Shown piece by piece: positions 185 through 61,467 of a stretch of DNA of 64,000 nt (the first letter of the stretch is position 1; each line of letters starts with the position of its first letter). The notes below the pieces were generated by a model. That model was given only the letters and a program-made list of their open reading frames with translations. It was not told the DNA's origin and searched no databases. The position numbers and the translations under genes were made by a program. The stretch is from Enchytraeus crypticus. Lineage: Eukaryota > Annelida > Clitellata > Enchytraeida > Enchytraeidae. The DNA is taken from NCBI GenBank assembly GCA_905160935.1, contig CAJHZI010000242.1, positions 259,501 to 323,500 on the forward strand. The letters run 5' to 3'.

Positions 185-1799
185 CTCGTTTTTGTATAGA
201 CGTGGTTTCAGAGGATGAATATAGCTGACTCGACCCTGATACAATATGACACCCCTACACATACCAAATCAGTGATACAATATTATACAACACCCCTACA
301 CATACCAAATCAGTGATACAATATTATACAAAACCCCTACACATACCAAATCAGTGATACAATATTGTATAACACCCCTACGCATCCCAAATCAGTGATA
401 CAATATGACACCCTTACACATACCAAATCAGAGATACAATATCATATAGCACCCCTATACATACCATATCAGTACTACTAAATACCACCCCTATACATAG
501 CAAATCAGTGATACAATATGATACCCTTACATACCATATCAGATATAAAGTAAATTAATAGATTTATTGATTTATAGATGATTGATTGATAGAAAGAGAT
601 TGATTGACAGATAGACTAATGTGGTATAAAGTAAATGAATAGAATTATTGATTTGTTGATTGATAGATGATTGATTGATAGACTGCTAGACTACTAGGAT
701 ATAAAGTAAATATATAGATCTGATATTTGATTGATTTACTGATTGATTGATTACCTGATTCCATTACAAGTGCTGATCATAACCAGTGTGTCTACCACTC
801 TACCCACCTGACCCTGATAGTAGCAGTTCTCTACAGCAATCTGAAACCAATCCAGTAATCAATCAATAAATCCATCAATCAATCAATCCATCCATCAGTC
901 AATCACTTAATCCATCAATCAATCCATCAGTCAATCAATTAATCCATCAATCAATCAATCAACTTAATCAATCGATAGATCAATCCACGAATCAATCATT
1001 TAATTCTTACATCAATCCATCAATCAACTTCATAAATATATCCATAAATCACTCCATCAATCAATCAATCAAACAATCAATCAATCAGTCAATCCATCCA
1101 TCAATCAACATATTCAATCAATCAATAAATCAATCGATCAATCAATAGATCAAATAGTAAATAATTCTCAGAACAACGTTCGTCATCAGATGGTGGGGTA
1201 GGTGACTATATTCATGGATATAGAATCACGTTGCAGTCTGAGCTTCTACCATCAGATGTTCAACCTGAGAGCCACTTGTCTCGAGCATTAGATCTCTAAT
1301 TATTCACATGCAGAGCCTCAGCTGCTTGTAAGGCTGGTTGTTGTAGTATCACTCTCTCACTCTTAACTGTTATTTCTACTCGAGGAGGGGAGGGGGTTAC
1401 CCCCCGTGTCTCCTCATCTAAAACTCCGTTAAAATTTATAGATTTGCCCTCTGTAGCGAGGCACCGGACGTTAAATTAATATTGATTGATGGATTTACGG
1501 GATAGTTCAGTCCATGGAAAAATTAACAACAATTATATTAGGTGTGTAAATTTAGTAGCAATGTTACAAGTCTTTATCTGTAGTTTGATCCTAATATCAC
1601 CGGACCGGCATCGTTTATGATCTAACTTTATCGTTATTAGCCTGGATTTAAGAGATAAGTTTAGAGCTGAACCTCAACGTTTATGGAACATGCAAGAAAT
1701 CATACAGATATCCGTAGAAACTCTGGCAGCCCCCCCAGTCTATACTCGAAATATCTGAGAACATTTTGAGCACCGTATCTCCGTAACATTGTATCCATG

Positions 1800-1852
<53 letters not shown>

Positions 1853-1936
1853 GAGAGATAGAGACAGACAGCGAGAGAGATAGAGAGAGTGAGAAGCGAC
1901 AGAAAAAGACAGACAGAGAAATAGAGATAGAGAGAG

Positions 1937-1988
<52 letters not shown>

Positions 1989-4987
1989 GGTTCTAGAGCC
2001 CACTGGACTTGACAACTCTCATATAATAGAGCTCTATAGTAAAGTATATAGACAAACATTGTGGAATAGTTAACACACTAGACGTCCATAGCATCATCAA
2101 CTCCGTACAGACCATAAAACTATACAGCGACCTTCAACACACAGAACTTAAAAAGCTGGTAGAGCTGCTAAATTAAAATTAGTTGAGCGATATTTAAAGA
2201 GAAATGTTCTACTGTTACATTGCAGTAGGTTATTACTTCACATTATTAGATTGTAGTTCTGTAGATCTTTAGTAGCTCTGCTATGTTACAACTAATTTAA
2301 ATTTAGCAGCTCTACCAGCTTTTTAGAAAGCTGGTAGAGCTTTTTACAAAGCTGGTAAAGCTTATGTTAACGTCAGTTTCCTCACTCGAAAGCGATGTCA
2401 GTGATGGGAGAGCCCAGGATTTGAACCACACACATACTGACCCGCGGTCGAATATCTTATCGAGATCGCCACTGGCTCCAGCCAGAACAACCTACAAACA
2501 CTGAAAAGAAAGCAACTCACAGCAAGCATAATATACGATAGACAAAATATAATCAGACTACAGTGGTACAATACAATACATACAATACACTGCAATACAG
2601 AATAATGCAATGAAATACAATGCAGAACAATACAGTTAAATACAATACAATACAGTTAAATACAACACAGTAAATACAATACCTCTTCTCTGTAGGTTCT
2701 CGTAGAATCTAAGCTCGTCTCTACAGTCAATGTCTCTCCCAGTAAATCTCTGTAAACATACAGAGCCCAACATCTCTCAATCTAACGTCTCTACATCTGA
2801 CATCTCTACATTTAACATCTATCCATCAAACATATCTCCATCTAAGATCCCTCAATATCTATAACTCTATTCCACCAGCTTATCCAGATCAATAGATAAT
2901 TACAAATTAATTAGAAATTCTCAATAGTTGTAATAAGTGAAAAGATAAAAGACAGGCAACGCTTGTGCACCAGCCCGGCTACTCGAGGTCATCAAGCATC
3001 TGGCTGTATAAAAGAATTACTGAAACACACTGACTGAAATCTTGTAAAGTCAGAGAAAGCCTTGCCAAAGAAATAAGGTATCTCGCTCATTAGTGAGCAC
3101 TATTATTATTTTATATTACCTCCGGCTTAAAGAAGCCGGGTTTTTATAAAAATCATAATTATTAGTATTATCAGTATTATATAATTAAGAGAACTAGATA
3201 TCATCAGGCACATTCAGTTTTACATTTTCATAGTCATTTTCATATTGTTGGCTCCAACTATACACTAAAAATAAATCTCATATATATATTTCTATAATAT
3301 TAATTAATATTATTAACAGAGTTATCACCTCATCCTCTATTAACAACAATATTGTCTAAATTTATTGAAGATTTAAAAAAGAAATAGATTAATTTAAAAA
3401 AAGAACCGAGCAGCACTAACCTGTTTAATTTTAATTTAATTTTTTGACGTCGACCCGACAGCACGAGCTCAATGTTGGTATGATGATAGTGAGACATCTG
3501 TCACACAAATCATAAAAACTATATCACCCGCAAACACACCTTTATTTAACAGACTATCACGCTTCTTATATGACCAGCAAACACACCTTTATTTAACACA
3601 CTATCGCGTTTCTTAAATGATCCACAAACATCCCTTTATTTAACACACAACCACGCTTCTTAACACTTCATATCCTGCAAACGTACGACTAGATTACCGA
3701 GCTGAGATAGACTTTAAAATTATTTATAATAATCTCCGCTCGGTCTGTATAGTTATATGTCATGTCATGTGATCGTCCTGGGGCTGGTTCCAGCTAAAGA
3801 TTTCTATGATATTTCTCCACAAAACTCCATTCTTTGCCACATCCTCGATGTTCATTCTTTTTTTCCTTCTCTTCTTCCATAAATGCTAACTCCAGCAGCT
3901 TTCAAGTCTTCTTCGAGGCAGTCCTTCCATCTTCTTTTAGGTCTTCCCGCTGTTCTCTTGCCGCCTGCTTTATAGTTAAATATCTTTCGAAAGTTTCTGT
4001 TATCTTCCATGTGCATAACATGTCCAGCCCATTTCATTCTTCTTTCTTGATTATTTCTCTGACCATTAGTTGAATTGTTCTTATCCTAATGTTCTCAGTT
4101 ATATGTTCTAGTTATATGTAAACAGGGTATACTTAGAGCCTAAATTACAAATATTGGTTGTGTTGAAGAAACTGAAAGGCACTCATGCATAGAAGCCAAC
4201 AGAGTTCAGTACAGAGTTCCCGCTCAACACGCCGGCCAATACAGAACAAACCTACAAAGTATCTTAAAGAATTTCTAAATCATTGCTTATTATTTATGTT
4301 ACAGAGAAAGAATCTTTATTTCGTGATCTACATAGAATATAATTTATAGGAATTAACCTTGAGGTTAATTAATTAACTAAGGTTAATTAATTAAAATTAA
4401 TTTATAAATATTACTTAAATTTTGAAATCTTTAAGTAAAGATTTCAAAATTTAAGTAATACTTATAAATTAATTTTAAGAAGATTTAACTGTAAGTTGTT
4501 TTCGAGTCAATTGTTAAAATGAAATATACAATACACATTGCGTTAATCAAAGTAGTAGCAGGTCTGAAGACTAAAATTCCTAGACTTACTGGACCATTCT
4601 CTAGTGCTAGGATTTCACTCATAGACCATCTGATATAACGGATATGAACAAACCTTAGACTTGCTCATCCTATCTCTAGTGCTTAGATCAGATAGGATTT
4701 CTCTCATAGACTATCTGATATAACAGATAACAAACCTTAGACTTGCTCATCTAGTCTCTGGTGCTTAGATCAGATAGGATTTCATTCATAGACTATCTGA
4801 TATAACAGATGATGAACAAACCTTAGACTTGCTCATCCTGTCTCTAGTGCTTAGATCAGAGAGGGTTTCACTCATTCTTATCTGTTGTGGATAGACTATC
4901 TGATATTCAGTTGTTAGACCCAGCAACCAATCTCTGTTGTTCTCCACGTCAAATCTTACCATATCATCTACAACAATCAACCACACA
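185..4987 (-). CDS. ADAM-family metalloprotease, prodomain exons; gene runs off the left edge
   Basis: Three minus-strand exons are recognised: 4987-4822, 840-755 and 254-185. The first reads ...TEYQIVYPQQIR..., like the start of the reprolysin (M12B) prodomain. The second reads NCYYQGQV...ISTCNGIR and the third GVILYQGRVSYIHPL. Together they give the family pattern C-Y-Y-x-G-x-V ... S-T-C-x-G-(I/L)-R-G ... Y-I-x-P-L, whose Cys is the prodomain cysteine switch. The last two exons join in phase (AG + G restores Arg), with borders ttggtttcag/ATT, ATCAG/gtaatc, gtgtag/GGG and GAG/gtaaag. At least one exon between 4822 and 840 is missing or not recognised, as is the signal-peptide exon. The catalytic HExxH domain would lie left of the window. 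ADAMs are secretory-pathway sheddases or adhesion proteins; ADAMTS is less likely because of the CYYQG/STC spelling. Tandem arrays touch exon edges at 228-545 and 4575-4880. Confidence 0.72.
228..545. repeat. 40-43 bp tandem array, about 8 copies, seeded on an ADAM splice acceptor
   Basis: On the minus strand every unit carries a (T)GTGTAG/GGGTGT acceptor-like junction. It also carries the first 18 or so bases of the ADAM exon that ends at 254. Confidence 0.85.
546..754. repeat. Degenerate (TGAT)n tract
   Basis: GATTGATTGAT-rich DNA runs up to the donor of the 755-840 exon. It is complementary to the tract at 841-1156. Confidence 0.9.
841..1156. repeat. Degenerate (ATCA)n tract
   Basis: AATCAATCAATCC-type repeats start just upstream (in gene sense) of the acceptor of the 755-840 exon. 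They are in the inverse orientation to 546-754. Confidence 0.9.
1157..1800. other. Intergenic or intronic DNA, no gene seen
   Basis: Unique sequence. It contains a short fragment of the retroposon 3' domain ending in GGACGTTAAATTAATATTGATTGATGG (about 1440-1490), a (TGAT) tail. No exon could be supported. Confidence 0.5.
1801..1985. repeat. (GA)n microsatellite
   Basis: Interrupted GAGA run. The S/L-rich ORFs over it are repeat translations. Confidence 0.95.
2150..2345. repeat. Inverted repeat with 36-base arms
   Basis: Arms at 2150-2185 and 2289-2324 (AAGCTGGTAGAGCTGCTAAA against its complement) are separated by about 100 bases. Further direct copies of AAAGCTGGTA(G/A)AGCTT follow. Possibly a foldback element. 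Confidence 0.7.
2355..2487 (-). mobile_element. SINE B copy
   Basis: tRNA-like SINE in reverse. It has GGAGCCAGTGGCGAT at the head, a GGTTCAAATCC B box and a GAGTGAGGAAACTGACGTTAA 3' domain. The same element recurs at least nine times in the window. Confidence 0.85.
2560..2682. repeat. Short direct repeats of ATACAATACAGTTAA type
   Basis: Degenerate 10-20 bp repeats abutting the donor of the candidate exon at 2683. Confidence 0.7.
2683..2749 (-). CDS. Possible extra ADAM exon
   Basis: A 67-base open block lies between ttacag and a GAG/gtattg donor. It reads RFTGRDIDCRDELRFYENL and so on, vaguely like the prodomain stretch before CYYQGQV. It ends in phase 1, whereas the 840-755 exon starts in phase 0, so another exon would be needed. 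Direct repeats begin right at its donor (2560-2682), as at confirmed exons here. Weak. Confidence 0.25.
2955..3115 (+). mobile_element. Interspersed repeat J, (TTA)-tailed
   Basis: Shares CCCGGCTACTCGAGGTCATC and GAAAGCCTT(T)GCCAAAGAAA with the reverse copy at 45180-45420. Both end in TTATTATTATT. Possibly the 3' end of a LINE. Confidence 0.6.
3116..3530. other. AT-rich DNA, no gene seen
   Basis: Only a small CCGGCTT/AAGCCGG hairpin followed by T5 near 3122-3145 stands out. In a eukaryotic context I give it no function. Confidence 0.4.
3530..3665. repeat. About 47 bp tandem repeat, 3 copies
   Basis: Units contain CAAACACACCTTTATTTAAC and CACGCTTCTTA. Confidence 0.8.
3750..4085 (-). mobile_element. 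LINE 3' end, C-terminal ORF2 fragment
   Basis: Reverse-strand reading gives MKWAGHVMHM...GGKRTAGRPKRRWKDCLEEDL. This is the typical C-terminal tail of non-LTR reverse transcriptases. Frames break on both sides, so it is dead. Confidence 0.75.
4391..4478. repeat. Near-perfect 42-base hairpin with a 4-base loop
   Basis: Arms 4391-4432 and 4437-4478 are complementary with one mismatch around AAGT. The whole is AT-rich and preceded by TTAATTAATTAA motifs. Confidence 0.85.
4575..4880. repeat. About 84 bp tandem array, 4 copies, seeded on the ADAM exon donor
   Basis: Copies of the 3' end of exon 4987-4822 (reverse sense GATCTAAGCACTAGAGAC ... AGTCTAAG/GTTTG) repeat downstream in gene sense, donor included. 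Confidence 0.85.
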
Positions 4988-17572: not shown

Positions 17573-20500
17573 ATGGAGGAGGTAGGGCACAAGGAAGGGG
17601 AGGGGAACATGTTTGTGGTGGAGGAGGGGGGAGAGAGTGCCTCAGAGGTCAGTCACCCCACAGACACCCCAAGAGATGATCAGAGCGGACAGGACGATGT
17701 CAGGGACGTCCCTGACGAACACAAAGATCACGAAGTGGGCGAGGTAGTGTTGGACTGAGATTTTATTTGATTTGTGTTTCTATGACAACGCTGCATTGTT
17801 CTCTCTCTTCAGTGCACTGCAAAGTGGCAGGTTCAAGGTACATATTCATACTCAAAGTCTGTTTTCTCGCTCCATAAGAGCACTCCTTAGATCAACAAGC
17901 TAATCCCTTCACAAAGTCTATGCCTTAGCCATAACTTATGTAGCTAATAGCTTGGGTAAATGTGGATTCTGATGTGGTTTCCCATTACTAATTGCTAGTT
18001 AATGCTCGAGTTGACTGCTATTGCAAGAGATGTCCTTGATAATTATCTGTAGTGAGTGAGATGAAATAAATATTTCCAGGATTCTTATTCCATCCGCTAA
18101 TGCTGCATTTTATTCTTCTTTGATTTAAGCAATTAGACTAACCGTGCAAATATGCACATGTCGTAGAAAGCGACATAAAAACTAGATACAAACCAATGTC
18201 AGAAAGAGCATTCGGTTGGTGAGCGCCTAGGCTCCAGAAATTGCTACAAATACTTAAACGAATGGATAAACTTTGAAAGCCAATTCGTATCCCGGCCCTG
18301 GCTAAACTGGGATTTAAGGGCAGATGATGATGATTTGAATTAAACATTGCAAGAACTGACTTTTGAGCAGCCGCACGGAGAAGAAGGTGGAACGGAGTAT
18401 GAGGAAAGTGGCTCAACCAGCACGGGACATCTGGCGGAACTGGAAGAACTTGAAGAGGAAGAGATGGAGGAGGGAACGTTCAGAAGAGCTTTTCCACAAG
18501 TCCGTAAGACAATCGCCGAGGATAACAAGTGGAACCTGACAGTGGTGGACAGGCTGGACGAGTGCGTGCTGCTAGAGATAGCCAAAAACTATGCAGGTAG
18601 TCGATGTTATCTTGAATTACTATTGTAATACAATTTCTTGAAAACAGAAATGCAGTAGCTAGTTCTGTCTAATGTCCGATTGGTGAATCAATCAATTCTA
18701 TCAGTGATTAACCCATCAGTTGTTCTAATAAATCAATCACTTAGTCAGTGATTAATCCATCAGTTGTTTTGATAAATCAATCAATTCTATCAATGATTAA
18801 CCCAATTGTTGTTTTGATTAATCAATCCTCAGTGATTAACCCATATATGAAAAAAACGTTCTTACCAAAAATAAAAACGTTAAAAAACGCGTTTTTTTCC
18901 AAAAAAATGAAAAACGTAAAAAACGTTAGTAGCGTACACGTAGGTTTGCATATATTGCCTTCATTCCATAACACTAAGCAGTTTTATTACAACTAGACTT
19001 GTTCTAAGTGTACGTTTTTTATTTTATAAAAAATAAAAAACGTAAAAAACGCGTTTTTTTAACAAATATAAAAACTAAAAAAAAGGTTTTTTCGTCTATG
19101 CAACCCATCAGTTGTTTTGATTAATCAATAACTTACTCAGTTGATTAATGCATCAGTTGTTTTGATTAATCAATAACTTACTCAGTTGATTAATGCATCA
19201 GATGTTTTGATTAATCAATAACTTACTCAGTTGATTAATGCATCAGATGTTTTGATTAATCAATAACTTACTCAGTTGATTAATGCATCAGATGTTTTGA
19301 TTAATCAATAACTTACTCAGTTGATTAATGCATCAGTTGTTTTGATTAATCAATAACTTACTCAGTTGATTAATGCATCAGTTGTTTAATGATGTTTTGA
19401 TTAATCAATAACTTACTCAGTTGATTAATGCATCAGATGTTTTGATTAATCAATAACTTACTCAGTTGATTAATGCATCAGATGTTTTGATTAATCAATA
19501 ACTTACTCAGTTGATTAATGCATCAGATGTTTTGATTAATCAATAACTTACTCAGTTTAATGCATCAGATGTTTTGATTATATCAATAACTTACTCAGTT
19601 GAATGCATCAGTTGTTTGATTAATCAATAACTTACTCAGTTGATTAATGCATCAGAGTTTTGGAATCAATAACTTACTCAGTTGATAATGCATCAGATGT
19701 TTTGATTAATCAATAACTTACTCAGTTGATTAATGCATCAGATGTTTTGATTAATCAATAACTTACTCAGTTGATTAATGCATCAGATGTTTTGATTAAT
19801 CAATAACTTACTCAGTTGATTAATGCATCAGATGTTTTGATTAATCAATAACTTACTCAGTTGATTAATGCATCAGATGTTTTGATTAATCAATAACTTA
19901 CTCAGTTGATTAATGCATCAGATGTTTTGATTAATCAATAACTTACTCAGTTGATTAATGCATCAGATGTTTTGATTAATCAATAACTTACTCAGTTGAT
20001 TAATGCATCAGTTGTTTTGATTAATCAATAACTTACTCAGTTGATTAATGCATCAGTTGTTTTGATCAATACATTACTGTCAATGCTCGAACATTTATTA
20101 ATAACGTATGGCATCAGCAATTTGTTATTTGTTTAGATTCCACTTTCTTAAAAATTACATTTTACCATTCAGATTTGATAAATTAAACGTAAATATCGAT
20201 CGTTCGATTGATTGATTGATTTATCTATCGATCGATTTACTGATTGATTAGTTGATTGATTGATTTATCGCCTTATTGATCGATTGATCAATTGATTGAT
20301 TGATTGATTAATTGATCGATCAATCAATCGATCGATCAATCTATCGATCGATTGATTGCTTGATTGCTGGTACGAGAGAGTCAGGTGGACCTAGACTCGC
20401 TGCTGCCTCACTACAAGCAGTTCGTCGTCGACCACCTCGCCACTGACCTGCCCCTCCACCTCGTCACGGCGCTCATCGACGACGAGGGGTACTGGGGACG

Positions 20501-23500
20501 ACGCTGCTCCCGGGACTGGCCCGGCCACCCCGAGCCCTCCCGCCACGGCGGCTCCTTCAAGAGAATGTACTTCGAGCTACTGCTGCAGAGCCTCATCGAG
20601 TCCGTGGTGCCCAGGTGAGAGTCGTTGAGTCCGGGAGAGAGAGTCTGCTTGAGACGTCCCTGATATCACCTCACAGCGAGGAACCAGATATTAAATTCTT
20701 CAAACATATTATCTATATATCTGACTTCTTATTGATTGATTGATTGGTTGACTGATTGACTGATTGTGTGACTGACTGACTGATTGATTGATTGATTGAC
20801 TGACTGACTGACTGTTTGATTGACTGATTGATTGACTGACTAACTGACTGACTGACTGATTGCCTAATTGATTGATTGATTGACTGACTGACTGACTGAC
20901 TGATTGATCAGCCACAGCGACACCGGTGAGCTGCTAGCCATAGCCGCGCTCGGAGGACCCTACGTGAGGGGACTCGAGGTCGATCAGCTGCTGCCGCCCA
21001 TCCTCGACCCGCCCAGGCACGGAGACGAGCCCAGGGAGCCGGGAGCCCCCCTGCCTGACGTCCAGGGTGGGATGCTGGACCACCTGGACATCTCCGTGCT
21101 CGCCAAGCATCTTCCTCAGCTGGAGAGCCTGAGGATCCGGTACGGTGTGAAGAAGTGTCGCATGAACTTCAACTGGAACATCTTCAGGTTGCTAGGTTAT
21201 TAGTCAATCAAACAATCAATAAGACTATAAGGCAATGTCAGGGACGTCTCTTGCAGACACTACACAAACAGGCGCCAAAGCACCACACGTTTTAGTGATG
21301 ACTTTTATTAGATATTCAGATATTAGGAAGACAATGTGAAACAACCTCACAAACCATACTTTTCTCAAGCTCTAGGCTACATAAGGTATGGATAAGGCAT
21401 AGTGTTTGTGAAAGGATTAACTTGTTGATCTAAGAAGTGCTCTTATGGAGCGAGAAAACAGACTTTGAGTATGAATATGTAACTTGAACCTGCCACTTGG
21501 CAGTGCACTGAAGAGAGATTCAGATATTCAGGTCTCGCCGACACTGGCATCGCCTTCGGGCGAGGAAACTGACGTTAGCATTAGATTTACCTTTGGCGAT
21601 ATACATGTATATTTTTACAAAGTTTGTATGCAGAATTATTGATAAACAACTAGGTTAAATGGATACAATATTGCCCAATTGATTAATTAACCCGCAGATT
21701 TACGGCCGAAGATTGCAGAACGCTCACAAGCTTCGTTAGGCAGTCAGCCACGCTGAGGACGCTGGACGTGCACAGCTGCAGGATGGACGGGGCTAAGCTG
21801 CTCATCCTCGTCAAGGGCCTAGAGGGGCACCCCGCCCTATCCTCCCTCAGGCTCAACTATCAGACCCTCGACAATGACGCCGCCAGAATACTGGCTCGGT
21901 ACCTACACAACAACAACACCATACAGGTGCGAGTAGTTCTCGATGTTGTCATCGACCATAGAAGCACTCTGAGATTTAAGTTTATTTATAAGTTGTTGTT
22001 GTTTGGAGTATTTACTGTACACGTTGTGCTCCTACTTATGGTAAATAAACGATGTAGTCTTCTGGAGTATTTTTAGAGTCTTCTGGAGTCTTCTTGAATC
22101 TTCTGGAGTCTTTTAGAATCTTCTAGAGTCTTCTAGAGGCTTCTAGACTATTCTAGAGTCTGCTGGAATCTTCTTGAATCTTTTGGAGTCTTCTATAGTC
22201 TTCTGGAGTCTTCTTGAATCTTCTGGAGTCTTTTAGAATCTTCTAGAGTCTTCTAGAGGCTTCTAGACTATTCTAGAGTCTGCTGGAATCTTCTTGAATC
22301 TTTTGGAGTCTTCTATAGTCTTCTGGAGTCTTCTTGAATCTTCTGGAGTCTTTTAGAATCTTCTAGAGTCTTCTAGAGGCTTCTAGACTATTCTAGAGTC
22401 TTCTAGAATATTTTAGAGTCCCAGTTTAACCAGGGTCGGGATAACTGTTTATTAACCGTTTTATATCTACAGTATTTTATTATTTGAAACATAAATATGC
22501 TTATTTTGTTGTATTTTATAGTTTTATTGTATTAACAGTTTTATAACTACAGTATTTTATCATTTTAAATATAAATTTGCTTATTTTAGTGTATTTTATA
22601 CAATTATTTTATTAAGGAGCTGGAGCTATGTCACAACAGTATAGGCGAGGAAGGAGGAGAAGCCCTAGGCTACTGTCTGGCCTTCAACAAGTCTCTAAGG
22701 AGACTAAATCTCAGAGATAATATCCTGAGAGATCCGGGAGCCGCTGCTATCGCTAGGTTTCTAGTCTAATTCCTTAGACGCCTTAATATGCGTTCAATTA
22801 TGTCAAAATTTCTATAACGCTGTCATGCCCGGTGTCTGGTCTTCGAGGCCGCTTTACAGGTTCTTGGCAGGTTATTTGATATACGTGTTTCGAGGTTGTT
22901 TAATTAATTCCAAATATGTTTGCTTAGAAAATGTATTTTCTGTTCTCTCGCTGCATGCTTTTACGAATTTTAACTGTTGTTTATATGTTTTCCTACTTAT
23001 TAGACGATGAAATAAAGAGATGTATAAAAATAATAAACATGTAAACATCATTATAATAATATGCACTGTAGGCTGGTGGCTTTGACGATTAATTTATTTT
23101 TATTACTTGCTCTGCTGCTACTGATATAAACAGTGTTTGATGGTGAAAAGTGACTTGACTGCCTATAGCGGTTCTAAATAGTTCTTGATGTTGTCATGGA
23201 TATAGGTCGCTGATAAAGAAGAACACGACGCTAGCAGAGCTGAACCTTTGTGGTAACGACCTTGGAGTGACCTCTGCCAAAAACTTCGAACCGGTCCTCT
23301 TGAAAAACAAGTCTCTCACAGAGCTCGATCTAGCTGTCAATTATCTCTCAGAGGTGTGGCTAATTCCTTAATTGATTAATCGATTGATTGATTGATACAG
23401 ACGGGAGGCAAGCACATACTGAGTGGTCTCAGCTTGAACCGGTCGATGAGACGCCTGGACCTTAGAGCGATTAACTGACTGATTGATTGATTAATCAATC

Positions 23501-23890
23501 AACTGATTGACTGATTGATTGATTGACTGACTGATTGATTGATTGTTTGATTGATTGATTGATTGATCGATTGATTGAATGATGCAGACGGGAGGCAAGC
23601 ACATTCTGAGTGGTCTTAGGTTGAACAGGTCAATGAGAAGACTGGACCTTAGAGCGATTAACTGACTGATTGATTGATTGATTGTTTGATTGATTGATTG
23701 ATCGATTGATTGAATGATGCAGACGGGAGGCAAGCACATACTGAGTGGTCTCAGGTTGAACAGGTCAATGAGAAGACTGGACCTGAGAGCGAGTGGCTGT
23801 GGTAGTGAAGAGTTACGATGTATCAGTATGATCCTGAGCGAGAATCGTCAGATCATCAATCCATCGCCCGGGTCACGCTGCTACGTCTAG
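17573..23890 (+). CDS. DRC5: Dynein regulatory complex subunit 5 (TCTE1), complete or nearly so
   Basis: Exons 17573-17743, 18371-18596, 20377-20614, 20912-21187, 21698-21926, 22617-22756, 23206-23353 and 23723-23890 join in phase to 531 codons (human TCTE1 about 500). Residues 1-130 are acidic, then RKTIAEDNKWNLTVVDRL, HLATDLPLHLVTALIDDEGY, HGGSFKRMYFE and YGVKKCRMNFNWNIF are family hallmarks. Leucine-rich repeats follow (LELCHNSIGEEGGEAL, LRRLNLRDN, LAELNLCGNDL, LTELDLAVNYLS). DRC5 sits in the nexin-dynein regulatory complex of motile axonemes and is prominent in sperm flagella. The start ATG 17573 is the first in frame after a 36 bp array; an upstream exon is possible. Codon use is GC-richer than the introns. 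The terminal exon exists in three tandem copies (23401, 23588, 23723); only the last gives the longer tail ending SPGSRCYV. Confidence 0.9.
17800..18010 (-). mobile_element. Retroposon D copy in DRC5 intron 1
   Basis: CTCTCTCTTCAGTGCACTGC, AAGTGGCAGGTTCAAGGTAC, TTCATACTCAAAGTCTG and GTGGTTTCCCATT. Confidence 0.75.
18680..18845. repeat. About 45 bp repeats, older variant of the next array
   Basis: Units with CAGTGATTAACCCATCAGTT and GATAAATCAATC; degenerate relatives of the 19105-20075 array. Confidence 0.8.
18846..19104. other. A/T-rich spacer with repeated AAAAACGT
   Basis: At least eight AAAAACG(T/C) or complementary strings, including paired AACGCGTTTTTTT motifs. It lies between two related arrays in DRC5 intron 2. 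Confidence 0.6.
19105..20075. repeat. 45 bp tandem array, about 21 copies
   Basis: Unit TTTTGATTAATCAATAACTT + ACTCAGTTGATTAATGCATC + AGATG, highly uniform with a few deleted units. Each contains the palindromes TTGATTAATCAA and ATGCAT. In DRC5 intron 2. Confidence 0.97.
20195..20365. repeat. (TGAT)n and (ATCG)n tract before DRC5 exon 3
   Basis: Mixed GATTGATTGAT and ATCGATCGAT, ending about 10 bases before the acceptor. Confidence 0.9.
20640..20911 (+). mobile_element. Retroposon E 3' end with (TGAT/TGAC)n tail, up to DRC5 exon 4
   Basis: GACGTCCCTGATATCACC...GCGAGGAACCAGATATTAAATTC precedes a tract of TGATTGAT and TGACTGAC. The tract ends exactly at the GATCAG/CC acceptor of exon 4. Confidence 0.6.
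21350..21525 (+). mobile_element. Retroposon D copy in DRC5 intron 4
   Basis: GCTCTAGGCTACATAAGGTA, GTGCTCTTATGGAGCGAGAA, CCTGCCACTTGGCAGTGCAC and TGAAGAGAGA. Confidence 0.8.
21536..21590 (+). mobile_element. SINE B 3' fragment
   Basis: CACTGGCATCGCCTTCGGGC...GAGGAAACTGACGTTAGC. Confidence 0.65.
21930..21978 (+). mobile_element. Retroposon G fragment next to a DRC5 donor
   Basis: GTTCTCGATGTTGTCATCG...AGAAGCACTCTGAG begins about 7 bases after the exon 5 donor. A related GTTCTTGATGTTGTCATGG string forms the acceptor of exon 7 at 23180-23205. Confidence 0.55.
22062..22422. repeat. 10 bp repeat organised in 120 bp higher-order units
   Basis: TTCTGGAGTC-type decamers. 22081-22200 and 22201-22320 are identical base for base, and the third unit diverges only at its end. 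In DRC5 intron 5. Confidence 0.97.
22446..22612. repeat. About 85 bp direct duplication before DRC5 exon 6
   Basis: Two copies of TAACNGTTTTATA.CTACAG...GTATTTTATA; the second ends 5 bases from the acceptor. Confidence 0.75.
23401..23478 (+). pseudogene. Extra copy 1 of DRC5 last-exon start
   Basis: 69 bases match the true last exon (TGGKHILSGLSLNRSMRRLD), preceded by a usable GATACAG acceptor. Sequence then jumps into the TGAT tract and stops after ...RAIN. It could serve as an alternative terminal exon lacking the last 30 or so residues. Confidence 0.85.
23479..23722. repeat. (TGAT)n tracts between the last-exon copies
   Basis: GATTGATTGACTGA-type runs separating the three exon copies. 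Confidence 0.9.
23588..23665 (+). pseudogene. Extra copy 2 of DRC5 last-exon start
   Basis: Same length and same breakpoint as copy 1, again with an intact GATGCAG acceptor and the ...RAIN stop. Closer in sequence to the full exon (RLNRS) than copy 1. Confidence 0.85.
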
Positions 23891-23892
23891 CG

Positions 23893-24212
23893 ATCAATCA
23901 ATCCATCAGTGAATCAATCAATAAATCAGTCAGTCCGTCAGTCAATCAACGAATCACTCAATCAATCAATCAATCCATCAGTCAGTCAATCAGTCAGTCA
24001 ATCAATCAGTAAATCAATCAATCAATCCATCGCCCGGGTCACGCTGCGACGTCTAGCGATCAATAAATCCATTAATCATTCAATCAATCAATCAGTCAAT
24101 CAATCAATCCATCAATCAATCAGTCAATCAATCTTTCAGTCAGTCAATCAGTCAGTAAATCAGTCAGTCAGTCAGTCAATCAATCCATCAATCAATCAAT
24201 CAATCGGGCAGT
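23893..24212. repeat. (ATCA)n tract containing a copy of the DRC5 tail
   Basis: CAATCAATC-type repeats. Near 24030-24058 there is a second copy of the last coding bases (CATCGCCCGGGTCACGCTGC ... GTCTAGCGATC). It is complementary in sense to 23479-23722. Confidence 0.85.
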
Positions 24213-28233: not shown

Positions 28234-28270
<37 letters not shown>

Positions 28271-38234: not shown

Positions 38235-38670
38235 CGTGGTTATGAAGGGATATTTTGTAGGCGGGGCTATGGTGGGATATTTTGTAGGCGTGGCTATGGA
38301 GGGATATATTGTAGTCGTGGCTATGGAGGGATATATTGTAGGTGTGACTATGGAAGGATATATTCTAGGTGTGACTGTGAAGGGATATATTGTAGGCGTG
38401 GCTATGGAGGGATATATTGTAGGCGTGGTTATGGAGGGATATATTGTAGGCGTGGCTATGGAGGGATATATTGTAGGCGTGGTTATGGAGGGATATATTG
38501 TAGGCGTGGTTATGGAGGGATATATTGTAGGCGTGGCTATGAAGGGATATATTGTAGGCGTGGTTATGGAGGGATATATTGTAGGTGTGGCTATGGAGGG
38601 ATATATTGTAGGTGTGGCTATGGAGGGATATATTATAGGCGTGGCTATGGAGGGATATATTGTAGGTGTG
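38235..38670. repeat. 27 bp array, about 16 copies, starting at the OXR1 stop codon
   Basis: Unit GCGTGGCTATGGAGGGATAT + ATTGTAG begins on the base after TAG 38232-38234. It is open in one frame because 27 is a multiple of three. Probably 3' UTR. Confidence 0.95.
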
Positions 38671-42090: not shown

Positions 42091-42652
42091 TATAAATCAA
42101 CAAACACTGGTAATATTTAACTGGAATTTGTATTACAAGATTTCAAAATACAGCAGAAGGAACGAATAAATGGGAAGAATACTCTGATCACAAATTTGTC
42201 AGAAATATTCGCAAATATTTCACGACTTGAGAAATTACGTGACGATGTATTTTATACTATAATTCACACAATAAAGACGTACACGTAAAAACAATCAAAT
42301 TCAAAACACCTTGAAAACCGATCAACATCAGTACAATTCATAACCTTACATTAAATGTTCCATTCTTTAAGCTACTTATAATTTAACGCCCGGTTCTTTA
42401 TCCAAAGGAGTTGTCAGGACCTATTTGAAGGCATTCAGCTAAAAGCACATCGGATTTAAGGGGCCTAACATTTGGCTATATGAACGACGCTGGTAGATTC
42501 CACTGAGAAAGGATTAGAATATCGTAAACTGCTCGTGTATCGTAGAGAATACTAATACAGGTGTTAAGGAAGGCAATGGGAACTACACAAGACAATATAT
42601 CAATCCCTTGAAGGAAGACATACTTTTATATATCGAATCTACTGGCTGGAGT
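42091..42652. other. Intergenic, no gene seen
   Basis: Nothing recognised. Confidence 0.4.
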
Positions 42653-42774
42653 CAGTTGTGATGTCGGTAAGATACTCGACCGTGGATCAGTATGTGCGGG
42701 GTTAAAATCCTGGGCTCTCCCGTCACTGACATCGCTTTCAAGTGAGGAAACTGACGTTAACATTAGCTTTTTTA
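42653..42774 (+). mobile_element. SINE B copy
   Basis: GGCTGGAGTCAGTTGTGATG, GGGTTAAAATCCTGGGCTC and AAGTGAGGAAACTGACGTTA, ending in TTTTTT. Confidence 0.9.
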
Positions 42775-44163: not shown

Positions 44164-44224
44164 ATTCTCATTATTAGCCAAACATCATACCTTAATCTAA
44201 TAGATGATTAATTTAATTTTAAAG

Positions 44225-44660
44225 GAGTGTCTATCACAGAGAACTAGTTCAGCATGGAGTGTCCATCATAGAGAACTAGTTCAGCATGGAGTGTCTATCA
44301 CAGAGAACTAGTTCAGCATGGAGTGTCTATCATAGAGAACTAGTTCAGCATGGGGTGACTATCATAGAGAACTAGTTCAGCATGGAGTGTCTATCATAGA
44401 GAACTAGTTCAGCATGGGGTGACTATCATAGAGAACTAGTTCAGCATGGAGTGTCTATCATAGAGAACTAGTTCAGCATGGGGTGACTATCATAGAGAAC
44501 TAGTTCAGCATGGAGTGTCTATCATAGAGAACTAGTTCAGCATGGGGTGACTATCATAGAGAACTAGTTCAGCATGGAGTGTCTATCATAGAGAACTAGT
44601 TCAGCATGGGGTGACTATCATAGAGAACTAGTTCAGCATGGAGTGTCTATCATAGATATT
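44225..44660. repeat. 32 bp array of the TMEM9 stop-codon region, about 13 copies
   Basis: In gene sense each unit reads TATGATAGACACTCCATGCT + GAACTAGTTC. This is the last seven codons plus TAG. Units alternate GGAGTGTCT/GGGGTGACT, giving a 64 bp dimer period. Confidence 0.95.
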
Positions 44661-46961
44661 TCGCCTCTGTTCGCTCACTGTGCCCTTCCACCTCTCCTGC
44701 CTGCCTGCCACCCCCAGCACTTTTCTCCTCACTCTAGAGAACACACCCCCACTCTCTGTATCACCTACCACCCTCCCTTCCCCACCCCTAGCAGTGGACC
44801 TAGACGATTCCTCCTGTGAGCATGTAGAAACACAACACGAACTAGAGTAACATAATCATCAATTATAATTATAGTGCTACTGTCGTCAGTGACAACACCG
44901 GCACTTCTGAGATAAATCCAAACCAACGAGCAAGGACTTATTTATGTTCGTTACATTGATTCGTGTTGTGTTCGATTTCTATTGCATGTGTTTCTTACTG
45001 CCCTGAATTTGGTGAAATAAAGATTGTAAAAAGCAAAAAGGGTCGACAGGCAAAATTAAAAATTCAGAAAATCAGTCCAAAGAAACAATAAACAATAATA
45101 AATAATAAATTTAAAATTAATAATATTGCATGTAATATTGAATAGTAAGTACGAATATTATGTAATAATAAAATAAAAATAATAATAATAATAATCATAA
45201 TTTTTATTAAAGGCATAGGCAGACTTATCACAGAGCAAACCGGCAATAAGCGAGAGACATCTTTTCTTTGGCAAAGGCTTTCCATGACTTTGCAAAGATT
45301 TAATGCAGTCTGCTTCAACAATTCTTTTAAGCCGTTTGATGACCTCGAGTAGCCGGGCGGCGATTCAGCACGTATTGCTTGAATCGTTTTTATCAAACCC
45401 CAGGTTCTTTACACCGGGGTAAAAATTTTTTTAATAATAATGATAATAATACATCTTAGTTTAATGTTTGTGTTCATATTTATTATTATACTGGAATATT
45501 TCCCGTAATGATTAAATACTGGCAAAACTGAATGAAATGAAAACTTGGATGGTATCAGTGTTTCAGCATTGCCATGCTACAAGTTTTGTTACACTAGAAC
45601 ATATCTAAACAACAGAGAACCACTCGGCACTACTCACAGCTTCATTGCGTTGCTCCACGTAAGCCGTCTGTCTGCGACTGAGCAGCGGATCAAGACACAG
45701 CAAGAAGAGCATATAGAGAAATAGTAGTGACACTATGCATATCACTATCATCACCACCACCTGCATAATTCCATGACAATATGTAGCATCATAAAGACAT
45801 CAACCTGCATAACATCCATGACAATATATAGCATCATATAGAAGAGGATGTAGAGAAAGAGGAAAAAGAAGCTGCCACTGGCAGCTAATAAGTATTGAAG
45901 AAAACTTTGATGGTAGCAGTGTTTCTGCGTTGCCACTGACAGTCAAAACAAAATAAGAATTGAAGAAAACCTCGATGGTAGCAGAGTTTCTGCGTTGCCA
46001 CTGACAGTCAAAACAAAATAAGAATTGAAGAAAACCTTTATGGTAGCAGAGTTTCTGCATTGCCACTGACAGTCAAAACAAAATAAGAATTGAAGAAAAC
46101 CTTGATGGTAGCAGTGTTTCTACGTTGCCACTGACAGTCGCACCTCTGACAGAAGTTAGCCTGACTCTCCATTCGCTCAATGTCAACGACATTCTCACAC
46201 TTACTGCATCAATCAATCAATCAATCAATCAATCAATTAATAAATTAATTACATTATCAACAGATTATTTACAAATATATCTACCATGTGCGCTAATAAA
46301 TTGTGTACATCTATGAAAATATCAAGCCCTGGAAGTCCTAGTTAAGGCAACTGGAGAGTTTAAGAGATTAATAATAATAATAATAATGGTTCAACATCAG
46401 TTTCCTCATCCAGGGATGATGTCAGGGACGTCCCCAACAGCACACATCACTACAGATCAATTCACCCAGACCAATCTGCAAAGAAATGTGCTGAGGAGAA
46501 GTGAAGTCCTAAACAAAAGCCAGTCTGATGACCAAAAAACGCTCAGCGTAGATTGATTATGTCTATGGTGGAAAAAGGTAAGTTTTAAGCTTGCTAGAGA
46601 ATGTTGAAAGAGAAAAACAAGAGTAAAGATTAGCAGGTTCCACATATCAGTGGCTCCACAAACATTTACTCCTTGATCAGTGTCTCTAACTCATCTGATA
46701 TGACTCTAGCAAACGCCTCAATTCATCCACAACAGAGCACTGAATCATACTATTATATACTATTTATATATATATATATATATAATATTATATATTAATA
46801 TTATATTATTATATATATAATTATTATATATATATATATATATTTATATTATTATACTATTTATATATATTATTAAATATTATATATATTATATATTATA
46901 TTATATATTAATATTATATATTATATATATATATTATTATTATATTTATATATACTGTATA

Positions 46962-47035: not shown

Positions 47036-47394
47036 TATATTTATATTATTATACTAATTGATCCCATCTCTAATGTCCCATAAACAGCTTCAGCTATTCA
47101 TACAATGATTTGCATGAATTTCCACTGATTCTGCCTAACTTATCATAATGACTTAATCATAGCACTAGGAACTACTGGAGCCTAAAATGCAGTATTAACT
47201 TATCATAATGATCTAGTCGCAGCACTAGCTAATAATGGCGCCTGTAATTAAGAACAGTCAATAGAGAAAGGTAAGCGTTACCAATGGGACGGCTCGTGGA
47301 ATGACTTGATGAATATTTTTCTACCAGGCAACGTTGAGTTGGTAGTGGTGGCAGCAGGGCAAACACATTTACATCTCACGTCTTCATATTGAGC
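44628..47394 (-). CDS. TMEM9: TMEM9-family type I membrane protein, all but the signal-peptide exon
   Basis: Exons 47394-47282, 46203-46101, 45760-45638 and 44813-44628 splice in phase (0/2/0/0) to 174 codons; vertebrate TMEM9 is about 183 with signal peptide. Order: AQYEDVRCKCVCP cysteine motif; CKCENVV ... FCQRCDCQWQRRNTATIK; one transmembrane helix VVVMIVICIVSLLFLYMLFL; the cytosolic CLDPLLSRR; and the C-terminus QERWKGTVSEQRRNIYDRHS-MLN, matching the family ending QRWK..V.EQR...DRH.ML. TMEM9 proteins live in late endosomes and lysosomes and act with CLC chloride/proton exchangers and V-ATPase. TMEM9B is the alternative paralogue. The first exon (signal peptide) must lie right of 47394; it was not found, perhaps as far as the 52 kb CpG-richer region. 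Arrays are seeded at its acceptor (47394), a donor (46101) and its stop codon. Confidence 0.9.
44868..45095 (-). mobile_element. Retroposon G copy, split
   Basis: TATAGTGCTACTGTCGTCAG near the start and ATTCAGAAAATCAGTCCAAA at 45060, with unrelated sequence between. Confidence 0.6.
45180..45420 (-). mobile_element. Interspersed repeat J, reverse copy
   Basis: (AAT)n then CTTTGGCAAAGGCTTTCCAT and GATGACCTCGAGTAGCCGGG, matching 2955-3115 in reverse. Confidence 0.65.
45545..45592. repeat. Isolated degenerate copy of the TMEM9 exon-end unit
   Basis: TTGGATGGTATCAGTGTTTC + AGCATTGCCA resembles 46101-46135 but lies downstream of the transmembrane exon. Confidence 0.6.
45763..45845. repeat. About 48 bp duplication of the acceptor of the TMEM9 membrane exon
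   Basis: CTGCATAA(C/T)...CCATGACAATAT(A/G)TAGCATCAT twice. In gene sense two TTATGCAG acceptors stand in tandem. Confidence 0.75.
45885..46100. repeat. 65 bp array of a TMEM9 exon 3' end and donor
   Basis: Three copies beyond the exon itself. In gene sense each reads GACTGTCAGTGGCAACGCAG + AAACACTGCTACCATCAA(G) / GTTTTCTTC. Confidence 0.93.
46205..46240. repeat. (ATCA)n at a TMEM9 acceptor
   Basis: CAATCAATCAATCAATC abuts the GATGCAG acceptor of exon 46203-46101 in gene sense. Confidence 0.9.
46366..46500 (-). mobile_element. Retroposon F copy with (AAT)n tail
   Basis: TAATAATAATAATGG, CAGTTTCCTCATCCAGGGAT, GACGTCCCCAACAGCACAC and ACCCAGACCAATCTGCAAAG. Confidence 0.75.
46745..47050. repeat. 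(AT)n tract
   Basis: TATATA with TATTATTAT interruptions, in a TMEM9 intron. Confidence 0.95.
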
Positions 47395-47815
47395 CTGTTC
47401 ACATACACATAGACACATACAAAAACACATTTACATCTCACATCTTCATATTGAGCCCGTTCACATACACATAGACACATACAAAACACATTTACATCTC
47501 ACATCTTCATATTGAGCCTGTTCACATACACATAGACACATCTTAAACACATTTACATCTCACATCTTCATATTGAGCCTGTTCACATACACATGGACAC
47601 ATGCAAAACACATTTACATCTCACGTCTTCATCTTGAGCCTGTTCACATACACATAGACACATCTAAAACACACTTACATCTCACATCTTCATATTGAGC
47701 CTGTACACATACACATAGACACATACAAAATACATTTACATCTCACATCTTCATATTGAGTCTGTACACATACACACATACAAAACACATAACATCTTAG
47801 GTCATCTTCTACAGC
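47395..47815. repeat. About 61 bp array of a TMEM9 acceptor, 6-7 copies beyond the exon
   Basis: In gene sense each unit reads CACATACACATGTGAACAG-like / GCTCAATATGAAGATGTGAG + ATGTAAATGTGT. This is the acceptor plus the first 32 coding bases (AQYEDVRCKC). Confidence 0.93.
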
Positions 47816-53330: not shown

Positions 53331-53459
53331 AAAAGCTAATGTTAACGTCAGTTTCCTCACTCGAAAGCGATGTCAGTGACGGGAGAACCCAGGATTTTAA
53401 ACCCCGCACATACTGATGCGCGGTAGAGTAACTTATCGACATCGCCACTGGCTCCAGCC
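53331..53459 (-). mobile_element. SINE B copy
   Basis: Reverse of GGAGCCAGTGGCGATGTCG...TTTAAAATCCTGGG...GAGTGAGGAAACTGACGTTA. Confidence 0.9.
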
Positions 53460-57067: not shown

Positions 57068-57083
57068 TTCTCTCTCTCTCTCA

Positions 57084-57146: not shown

Positions 57147-57149
57147 GTG

Positions 57150-58085: not shown

Positions 58086-58214
58086 TTTTTGTTAGAATTT
58101 TGGCAGCATAGTTTTGTTTGTAAACAGAGCTAAAAGTAAAAGTAACAATTGTACTAAATATTATGAAGCTTTAACTCGATTTACCTTTGATTCATACTTT
58201 CGACGCTCTTTGTC

Positions 58215-61200
58215 ATGGAGATAAGCTGGTCGCCTAATGATGAGAACGAATTCTACGTTTTTGGAAATGAACTTTCCATCTACGACATTCGAGCATATGA
58301 AGATGATGGCGACCGTACCGAAGGAACGCTGCTATCCCACTCAACATATGCCAAGCTAATAACTGTCGCCGTGGATCCGAGCTATAAGTGCATCGCGTGG
58401 AGACCTGGTAAAAACCCTGACCATCTGTTCGCTATAGGTTTAGCTACAACTGGGAGGGTTTTACTGCGACGTTACTCGATGCAAGATCAGGACGATGACA
58501 CGCTCAGTCTGACTGGTCGAGAATTCTCTTTGAAGCAGCCGAGATCTTGTAACTATTTACACTGGAATCCTGTTGACACTAATCTTTTAGCAGAAGGTGT
58601 TGACAGGGTGAGATCGGAGCACTCCATCGTGATATGGGATGTCAACTCAACGTCTGAATTAATACAACCCGGCGAGAGAAAGCATTCAACCAATGAGACT
58701 CACATAATTAAGCCTCTCTGCGAATTTGGAGCAACCGAGACGAGCGTATCGCTGAGCTGGTTCAAGTCGCAGCCGAAGACATTCGTAAGTGGAATGAGCA
58801 ACAAGTGTATTAGGATACTGGATCTGCGAGAGTCGAGTAGACAACAACAGCTGAGATTTGCGAGCAGTCGTGCAGTATTCAACATTACCGTGGACAACCT
58901 GTGCGAGACACGCCTAGCCTCTTGCCTAGAGAACCAGGTTATGATTTGGGACACGAGATGCTTTGATAAGCCTGTATCGGTGATCCAGGCAGCCAATAAC
59001 ATATCTAGACTCTCCTGGTGTCCGACGAGAGCCGGTCTGCTGGGCTGTCTCTGCCGAGACTCTCATATCATCAGACTGTACGACGCGAGACAAAGCAGCG
59101 TCGACCTCAACGACAGCACGTCTTCGTCTTCCTCCGATACTACCCCTCCTTCAGCTGCTCCGCTGATCGTTGAGCGAATCGTTCAGGCAGAGGACGGAAA
59201 TGGCACCGGGATCAGTTGGTTTGACTGGCATCCGACGCAGAGCAATCGGATGTTAACGTTGAGCCACACGGGACAGATAAACGACCTCAGGGTTCTAGAC
59301 AGACTGCCGATCAGCTGGTCGGCGGATATCTACCTGAGCTGGGTCACGGAACGAGAGATTCGACTGCTCCACACGGTCCTATCTGACCGAGAGATGAGCG
59401 AGGACATCAGTGTTAAGATGCGCCGCCGTGCTCAGAAACGTTACGGCTCAGAGTCAATGGAGCTGAACCTCAAGTGCTGCTCGGGGGACGAGCAGCTCAA
59501 GAAGCTATGGTCGTGGATGCTGATGGTGTCGGAGCTGCGAGCAGCGGGTGTTCAGCTAGATAGCGACTACTCTTATCCCGGCGTACGTACCGTGCTGAGA
59601 GCGGACAGCCAGTCGTTGAGCAGACTGGAGCAGGAGGGAAACGCCTGGCCTTGGCTCGGCTCTGACCAGCACTCGACTGATCACATGATCGGAGCCGAGC
59701 TCACCACGTACCGTAGTGCAGCCAGGCAGAAATGTTTGCGTCTCTGCGGCTGGGTGACCGACCGGCAGGGTAATTCTCTCGGCATTGTGAGCCGGCTGGA
59801 AGCGGAGGGAGAGTTTGAGAGAGCCGCAGCCGTGGCGTGCTTCGCTCAGAACTACGATCACGCCATCGATATACTGCAGAAGGGCGCCGTGGTACGAAGA
59901 CAGAATTCACCGAATGATAGACCAGGTAGGGTGTGCTTGTATTTGTATGCTTGGTAGCATTGTGTGTGTGTTTGGATGTTTCACTAGGTGACTGTGTGTT
60001 TAGATGTAGCATTGTGTGTGTTTGGATGTTTCATTAGGTGACTGTATGTTTAGATGTAGCGTAGCATTGTGTGTATGTTTGGATGTTTCACTATGTGGTT
60101 ATATGTTGATATGTATTTGTTTGTGTGTGTCCCAGATTAACTCTATTAACTTACTCTCTTAGAATGCTTCCGACTTGGTACCTTGAATAATTTTGAGGAA
60201 GATTATGTAGATGATTTCTTTATTGTCCATTTTTCTCACCTATATGAAAGTGTTAATATTTGTTTATATACAAATTGAAATAAATTTTTATCGGCTGATA
60301 TTTTCAACTCTATTATAGTGTTATTATTTGTTGTCCATAGATGTGTCAACATTTTTCTTATGTTATTATTTGTTATCATTAGAAGTCTCGACTGTTATTC
60401 TCATGTTATTGTTATCTTCAGACGTATCGGCTGTTATTCTCAACTCGATGGTGCTCACACTCACAGTCTACCTAGAGGACAGGGAGGGGGCCTGGAGGGA
60501 GGTCTGCAGCTCCTCCCAGCACTTCCTCCACCACCCCTACCTCCAGGCCATCGTTCAACTCCTCACCTCCGAGTCCATTCACGACCTCCAGCCGATCCTC
60601 GGCTCCTCCCAGCTAGACGTGGCAGACAGGCTGGCGGTGGCATGCCTGTACCTCCCCGACAACAAGCTCTCGGAGTACGTCGATCAGCTCAACTCCGGGT
60701 TCCACTCTGACGCCAGTCTCTCGGGGGTTCTGATCACAGGAGTGACGAGGGAAGGGCTGGATCTACTGGAGAGATACGTCGACTCCACCGGAGACGTTCA
60801 GACTGTCTGTGTCTTGCTGTTGGAGGCTCTGCCATCCAGCAAGCTGCTGTCTAACCGACGAGTCAGGGACTGGATAGAGGAGTATCGAGACTTGCTCGAC
60901 AGGTGGCGCCTGTGGAAGGAGAGGGCGGAGCTGGATATCTCGATGAGGAAGCGCGACAGCAGTCTTCTAGACTCTCCGCAGGTCGTCGTAGGATGTAACT
61001 TCTGCTCTAAGTCGATATCGCTCGACAGTCTCGCGAAGGCCGGCTGGTCTGTCACCGCTACAAATGCTTCCAGCCAGCACGCGCGGCACACCAGCCGGCT
61101 ATCAGCGGGTCCAGTGGACTTACTGCCGAGCCAGAGCGTCGCGTGGCAATCGTCGTGCTGTCCCAGCTGTCGCAAACCTCTCCCCCGTTGTGCTGTGTGC

Positions 61201-61467
61201 CTGCTACACATGGGAGCTGCCTCTGGGGCGTCTAAGTCGAAGCACGCTGGTGACGGGGGAGCGATGGGGCACAAGGTGGCTCCGATATCTAGCTGGTTCA
61301 CGTGGTGCCAGACCTGCAGGCATGGGGGGCACGCTGATCATGTGGCAGAGTGGTTCCAGGCCCACGACGAGTGTCCCGTGTTTGAGTGTCGCTGTCGCTG
61401 TGCTAGCACCGATCTCATTCGCAAGCTGAGCCCCGAGGAGCCATCAGCTCAGTCTGAAGAATTTTAG
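58215..61467 (+). CDS. MIOS: MIOS, GATOR2 complex WD-repeat/zinc-finger protein
   Basis: Two exons, 58215-59925 and 60422-61467, join in phase 1 to 918 codons (human MIOS 875). The N-terminal WD40 propeller (about 1-390) shows CNYLHWNPVDTNLLAEGVDR, HSIVIWDVNS, MIWDTRCFDKPV, SWCPTRAGLLGCLCRDS and IIRLYDAR. A helical solenoid follows (LCGWVTDRQG, EFERAAAVACFAQNYDHAID, ERYVDSTGDVQT, WIEEYRDLLDRWRLWKERAE). The C-terminal zinc domain (about 762-895) has CNFCSKSIS, CPSCRKPLPRCAVCLLHMG, FTWCQTCRHGGHADHVAEWF and CPVFECRCRC. MIOS in GATOR2 (with WDR24, WDR59, SEH1L, SEC13) counters GATOR1 to activate mTORC1 at lysosomes. ATG 58215 matches the family N-terminus (M..SWSP...F...ELSIY). Exon 2 has three in-frame acceptors (60340, 60382, 60421); the last fits the family. 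Confidence 0.96.
59930..60120. repeat. About 60 bp repeat, 3 copies, after the MIOS donor
   Basis: GTAGCATTGTGTGTGTTTGG + ATGTTTCACTAGGTGACTGT units. Confidence 0.85.
60318..60445. repeat. Three tandem copies of the MIOS exon 2 acceptor
   Basis: TGTTATTATTTGTTGTCCATAG/ATGTGTC..., ...ATTAG/AAGTCTCGACTGTTATTCTC and ...TTCAG/ACGTATCGGCTGTTATTCTC. Spacings are 42 and 39. Confidence 0.9.

Follow-up and report, generated by a model that had tools for sequence, protein, structure and literature searches.

Repeats and duplications at splice junctions have been described before, and those reports offer several points of comparison for the tandem arrays analyzed here. In potato, a duplication across an intron-exon boundary was reported together with a new intron (PMC4974935); in human segmental duplications, minisatellites at exon-intron boundaries alter introns, with 27 modifications after manual inspection (PMC2812944); and tandem repeats in UBC contain AGGT splice sites of dual specificity (PMC10809524). 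The contraction of an intron repeat in dog LHX3 (PMC3223203) is just loosely relevant. Our subject is a stretch of 64,000 nucleotides (nt) from Enchytraeus crypticus (contig CAJHZI010000242.1; hereafter the window), in which tandem arrays touch exon edges in five gene models. A first-pass annotation had proposed, as one of two options, that such edges are preferred sites of duplication. We find that one repeat family, built of TGAT and TGAC units, lies at splice acceptors far more often than random placement predicts and always in the sense orientation there, and that other arrays contact splice edges about as often as expected if arrays are simply cut off at exons.

As in potato, a duplicated segment in the window can span an intron-exon boundary and take in both the 3' splice site and some exonic sequence, and as in the human duplications, minisatellite arrays lie at exon-intron boundaries. 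Unlike the potato case, these are many-copy arrays in several genes of one species; unlike the human case, in which new introns come with transcripts, they are known from the sequence of a single window, and most copies are predicted to be non-productive. The likeness to UBC is confined to one array, before acceptor 27394 of the OXR1 gene, which repeats AG/GTAAT, a potential acceptor and donor, in four of five additional (decoy) copies; the UBC repeats are coding, whereas those in OXR1 lie in the intron and end in 12 coding bases. The junction copies therefore belong to a described phenomenon, and our literature search showed no precedent for TGAT tracts oriented in this way at acceptors.

Gene models, arrays and null placements

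The DNA of the window is nuclear and animal-like, its introns are of the GT-AG type, and exon models were assembled from reading frame, intron phase and homology. MIOS chains in the PDB match exon 1 of MIOS at E 2.7e-83 and exon 2 at 4.5e-75; a protein search with MIOS exon 1 for relatives scored 7995 candidates, 0 of them at E 0.001. DRC5/TCTE1 was identified by its match to 9fqr_Qx (E 3.8e-81, residues 11-431 of 442), TMEM9 by Pfam PF05434 (1.3e-40), and OXR1 by its LysM (3.2e-12) and TLDc (1.8e-43) domains, which are linked via one open 11-exon frame. The ADAM label given to a three-exon gene was unconfirmed against Pfam, NCBIfam and PDB sequences, and the outer border of its exon at 4822 is a guess. 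The earlier statement that edge arrays occur in every identified gene thus stands for five gene models, of which MIOS, DRC5, TMEM9 and OXR1 have supported names and the putative ADAM gene does not.

We scored 52 edges (24 acceptors, 24 donors and 4 stops), to which the copy test adds 3 starts, for a total of 55. Tandem Repeats Finder (TRF) returned 140 rows that merged into 86 arrays; removal of 3 that were wholly coding left 83, comprising 71 non-TGAT and 12 TGAT-family arrays. Of all intron bases, 40% lie in TRF arrays; the share is 28% for noncoding and 8.7% for coding bases. An edge was counted as contacted if an array lay over it or no more than 12 base pairs (bp) away. Contacts were compared with two null placements of 2000 shuffles each: a displacement null (also run with 300 shuffles), in which arrays were relocated at random but kept off exons, and a clipping null, in which randomly placed arrays were cut where they ran into exons.

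TGAT and TGAC tracts at splice acceptors

Under the displacement null, the 12 TGAT arrays contact 7/24 acceptors against 0.88 expected (0/2000 shuffles) and 1/24 donors against 0.84. The clipping null gives the same picture, with 7 acceptors against 1.73 (0/2000) and 1 donor against 1.65, and when the unconfirmed ADAM gene is dropped the acceptor count is 7/22 against 0.77 (displacement null, 0/2000). Blocks of the TTGA/CTGA motif, defined without reference to genes, number 21 in the window. Eight of these 21 adjoin an acceptor, where 0.28 were expected from placement in noncoding sequence and 0.76 from placement in introns (0/4000 each), and all 8/8 are in the sense orientation. Five block definitions gave acceptor-adjoining counts of 7/30, 8/21, 7/18, 6/25 and 7/21, each with 0/1000 random placements. 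Among TRF microsatellites, 8/13 of the TGAT type lie near an acceptor, compared with 0/20 of other types (Fisher 9e-5). The tracts are as follows.

20206..20366, plus strand: TGAT-family tract before DRC5 acceptor 20377 (acceptor from frame and DRC5 homology)
20721..20907, plus strand: TGAT/TGAC tract before DRC5 acceptor 20912, gap 5 (motif blocks)
23662..23713, plus strand: TGAT tract before the DRC5 last-exon acceptor 23723, gap 10 (motif blocks)
28477..28958, plus strand: TGAT-family tract before OXR1 acceptor 28962 (TRF, motif blocks)
29577..29615, plus strand: TGAT block before OXR1 acceptor 29628, gap 13 (motif blocks)
35593..35747, plus strand: TGAT/TGAC tract that extends into OXR1 acceptor 35744 (motif blocks)
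46209..46260, minus strand: TGAT tract before TMEM9 acceptor 46203, gap 6 (motif blocks)
859..983, minus strand: TGAT tract before acceptor 840 of the putative ADAM gene, gap 19 (motif blocks)

Acceptor copies 23588 and 28201, which arose by duplication, are each preceded by a further TGAT block. We considered whether the tracts could be tails of mobile elements and rejected this, as inspection by eye of the 60 nt preceding each of the 21 blocks revealed no common sequence; the exceptions are two DRC5 blocks that are alike, being tandem copies, and three other blocks that follow an earlier TGAT stretch.

Candidate branch-site motifs in the tracts

In animals the branch-site consensus is YTNAY. 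The units TTGAT and CTGAC fit this consensus, and the G at the third place also fits YTRAY, given as the branch-site consensus of fission yeast (PMC3629103); the difference is that here a microsatellite is built of the motif and lies at the 3' ends of introns. Motif density is strand-specific in these tracts located upstream of acceptors: per 100 nt, YTNAY occurs 17.1 times in the sense orientation and 1.04 times in the antisense, and AG occurs 1.24 times in the sense and 5.01 times in the antisense. The AG-free run before the acceptor has a median of 68 nt with a tract, compared with 42 nt without (p 0.025). Among the titles and abstract openings returned by our literature search, none dealt with TGAT or other tetranucleotide tracts as runs of branch sites, an absence limited to those results.

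Another role for the repeat was rejected: it does not appear to supply a pyrimidine tract, the pyrimidine fraction at -45 to -15 being 0.51 at acceptors with a tract and 0.58 at the others. A structured RNA or tRNA was also rejected, there being no Rfam match at the gathering score and no ARAGORN tRNA.

Arrays in general and exon edges

Array coverage does not peak at exon borders; it declines from intron to exon. Acceptor edges have 25% coverage, which reaches 58% in the intron at distances of 20-100 bp; donor edges have 12%, rising to 29% at a distance of 20 bp and to 58% at 100 bp. Copying of the edges themselves was scored by a strict ungapped criterion, in which a 24-mer over the edge must have a copy within 1.2 kb that matches it at 20 or more positions, including 9 or more on each side of the edge. 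By this measure 9/55 edges are copied: 7/48 splice edges, which is to say those at which a duplicated unit holds the splice site together with exonic bases, 2/4 stops and 0/3 starts. Random intron points are copied at 480/1500, with 703/1500 at 30-200 bp from an exon and 372/1500 deeper in the intron; the corresponding counts are 268/1500 for intergenic and 95/1500 for exon-interior points.

When all arrays are taken together under the displacement null, acceptors are contacted in 13/24 cases against 4.32 (0/2000) and donors in 6/24 against 4.38 (516/2000). For non-TGAT arrays the acceptor count is 6 against 3.05 (168/2000) and the donor count 5 against 3.15 (393/2000), and over splice edges alone it is 11 against 6.15 (47/2000). 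The same null gives no excess of edges that an array covers to a depth of 6 bp or more, either for non-TGAT arrays (6 against 4.75, 679/2000) or for all arrays (9/52 against 6.67, 410/2000). Under the clipping null the 71 non-TGAT arrays are at chance level, with 6 acceptors against 5.12 and 5 donors against 4.94. The non-TGAT excess under the displacement null would follow from clipping by selection, and because the non-TGAT counts match the clipping null, an attraction to junctions is not needed to explain arrays at large, whereas it is for the TGAT arrays.

We therefore reject, as a general rule, the earlier proposal that junctions are preferred sites of duplication: there is no edge peak, copying is below the intron rate, the depth test shows no excess and the clipping null is matched. 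The alternative offered alongside it, that duplications are tolerated where a good splice site survives beside the exon, fits the pattern. The argument that ordinary microsatellites should ignore exon borders, along with the suggested comparison of array ends with shuffled positions, carries weight within the window for TGAT and TGAC at acceptors; the positions of arrays in general match chance once clipping is allowed for.

Junction copies at exon edges

That a splice junction or stop codon is repeated in tandem units was seen at all 11/11 sites named in the first-pass annotation when the copies were laid out in register. The units hold exonic bases at most of these sites, as had been claimed, with almost none at 37313 and 45760. 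Three sites (37313, 45760 and 60422) fail the strict ungapped criterion, and the copies at all three are weak; TMEM9 acceptor 45760 has two diverged copies and about 3 exonic bases. The other sites, and one more found in this analysis, are listed here.

237..524, minus strand: array of 41-bp units over acceptor 254 of the putative ADAM gene, 18 coding bases inside (TRF, register)
4608..4875, minus strand: array of 82-bp units over putative donor 4822 of the putative ADAM gene, 54 coding bases inside (TRF, register)
23371..23792, plus strand: DRC5 array with acceptors 23401, 23588 and 23723 (TRF, register, frame reading)
23890..24061, plus strand: stop-codon end of DRC5 (23890) and a copy with its stop at 24056, in an ATCA array (copy test, register)
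27076..27405, plus strand: array of 55-bp units over OXR1 acceptor 27394, 12 coding bases inside (TRF, register)
28161..28301, plus strand: OXR1 array with acceptor 28276 and its copy 28201, each with a TGAT tract and 26 exonic bases (TRF, register)
36823..37313, plus strand: array of 26-bp units ending at OXR1 acceptor 37313 (TRF, register)
44224..44656, minus strand: array of 32-bp units with the TMEM9 stop codon 44628, 29 coding bases inside (TRF, copy test, register)
45887..46139, minus strand: array of 65-bp units over TMEM9 donor 46101, 39 coding bases inside (TRF, register)
47361..47776, minus strand: array of 61-bp units over TMEM9 acceptor 47394, 34 coding bases inside (TRF, register)
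60319..60422, plus strand: array that runs, with gaps, up to MIOS acceptor 60422 and includes AG copies ahead of it at 60341 and 60383 (TRF, register)

In the DRC5 array, each of the three acceptors carries a TGAT tract and at least 65 bases of the last exon, and 70 coding bases lie inside the TRF array at 23723. The copy of the stop-codon end (24024-24061) had been overlooked in the first pass; the last exon of DRC5 is thus duplicated at both ends. The array at 37313 holds 19 CTCAG acceptor copies with 1-3 exonic bases (1 coding base within the TRF array), and the TRF boundary of the MIOS array is at 60410.

Arrays had also been noted that begin near exon ends without copying them. Two of these were found as described, at 22612 and 38235:

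22450..22615, plus strand: array of 80-bp units that stops 2 bp short of DRC5 acceptor 22617 (TRF)
38234..38670, plus strand: array of 27-bp units starting on the final base of the stop codon of OXR1 (TRF)

The third, at 29145, did not hold up: the open reading frame across exons places the donor at 29137, and the TRF array starts at 29198, preceded by a diverged partial copy detected by eye.

Coding consequences of the copies

Reading on from 41 decoy copies (DRC5, 2; OXR1 27394, 5; OXR1 28201, 1; OXR1 37313, 18; TMEM9 acceptors, 6; TMEM9 donors, 3; putative ADAM, 4; MIOS, 2), with the decoys of 4822 and 45760 outside this count, we found that the GT or AG is kept in 40/41, the exception being the TMEM9 copy at 47456, which has no AG. 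Use of the intact decoys would give a frameshift or stop in 38/40. At the DRC5 copies 23401 and 23588, for example, translation reaches RAIN and then a stop. The MIOS decoys 60341 and 60383 are in frame and open, and would insert residues. In the OXR1 27394 array, where AG stands beside GTAAT in 4/5 decoys, we speculate from the sequence that a wrongly chosen acceptor might be re-spliced, each copy serving in principle as acceptor and donor. The prediction of multi-choice splicing is mostly disfavored by the 38/40 failing decoys, and on the same count we rejected productive multi-choice splicing.

Interpretation of the exon-edge repeats

We favor, with a probability of about 0.62, the interpretation that repeat-filled introns are clipped at exons by selection and that TGAT tracts are kept or grown at the 3' ends of introns as branch-site motifs. 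The exon-edge arrays would then mark the outer limit of introns packed with tandem repeats, with purifying selection clipping them at coding sequence. A duplication that crosses a junction would survive since the copy on the exon side still works, leaving the remaining copies mostly as useless decoys. Each TTGAT or CTGAC would be a YTNAY branch-site motif in a sense tract that is poor in AG, so that a tract seeded from the branch-site region, or landing in it, would leave splicing intact or serve it; the antisense repeat, with few branch motifs and more AGs, would be removed. The tracts may have arisen by growth from the branch site or by tolerance there alone. A bolder extension, which we put forward only tentatively, is that TGAT/TGAC microsatellites may be a working 3' splice signal in this lineage, placing many interchangeable branch points near the exon in about one third of introns, and that the later duplications in DRC5 and OXR1, by including the start of the exon, may have copied a complete, ready-made acceptor.

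Several observations weigh against the favored interpretation. The sample is small (one window, 24 acceptors and 12 TGAT arrays), the TGAT family was chosen after inspection of the same data, and the OXR1 exon edges beyond the LysM and TLDc domains are supported by the single open frame without homology. Two of nine acceptors with a tract have an upstream AG nearby (28962 at 27 nt, 29628 at 21 nt). Tract-free acceptors give divided evidence: YTGAY occurs in 9/15 at 11-60 nt (background 0.31 of intron-core windows and 7/24 donor zones), with its reverse complement in 1/15, which speaks for the interpretation, but at -45 to -15 it occurs in just 4/15, compared with 10/15 for the broader YTNAY; YTRAY occurs in 10/15 tract-free acceptors against a background of 0.51. 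In addition, 14/17 intron TGAT blocks are sense (p 0.013), some of them away from acceptors, and transcription-linked asymmetry may share in the sense bias.

This last point is the strength of the view that sequence bias alone placed TGAT at acceptors, through transcription-linked strand asymmetry and common TGAT slippage with no role in splicing. We judge it unlikely, as position is skewed as well as strand (the 8/21 blocks adjoining acceptors against 0.76 under intron placement), and donors are not favored (1/24 against 0.84). That junctions are preferred sites of tandem duplication, with replication- or transcription-linked breakage at exon edges seeding the arrays, draws on the two-fold excess of non-TGAT contacts under the displacement null (13/52 edges against 6.50; 10/2000), which counts against our favored interpretation too, and on the copying of the DRC5 last exon at both ends. 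The lack of a coverage peak at edges, the rarity of junction copying relative to the intron rate, the chance-level count of junctions deep in arrays and the match of non-TGAT arrays to the clipping null make this seeding a poor prospect. It is improbable that the copies are in use, the several acceptors or donors of each array providing regulated alternative splicing: the preserved GT and AG, the open MIOS decoys and the resemblance of the OXR1 27394 copies to dual-specific sites are what this would predict, but the 38/40 frameshifts and stops are not. Finally, the assembler may have expanded or collapsed arrays that we know from assembled sequence only; we consider this very improbable, given that array copies differ by substitutions and that the position and strand pattern of TGAT is unlike an assembler product.

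The analysis separates two phenomena that look alike: arrays that merely end at exons, where coding damage has been removed, and a family, TGAT/TGAC, that tracks the splicing machinery by position and strand. If the latter holds genome-wide, a mutable microsatellite would be performing the role of a splicing signal, and a link among repeat expansion, intron growth and splice-site turnover would become directly testable.

Other repeats in the window

Copies of a dispersed repeat of about 230 bp, tRNA-like by eye, lie in the same orientation at 34608-34844 and 35189-35430, their ends no more than about 20 bp before OXR1 acceptors 34865 and 35437; more copies are found near 12.7, 16.0, 16.2 and 62.9 kb. 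The OXR1 intron after donor 35896 holds a 122-nt inverted repeat (36239-36360 and 36652-36773, 98% complementary), and diverged copies of the exon end near this donor occur at about 36118 and 36693. Within the long OXR1 exon 29684-30432, three arrays with TRF periods of 15 (also 3), 63 and 45 are in-frame coding repeats. A second dispersed repeat, of about 120 bp and 84-92% identity, is present in both orientations, at 2364-2486, 27622-27740 and 30920-31050, with further copies at 37751-37879, 42642-42774 and 53327-53459.

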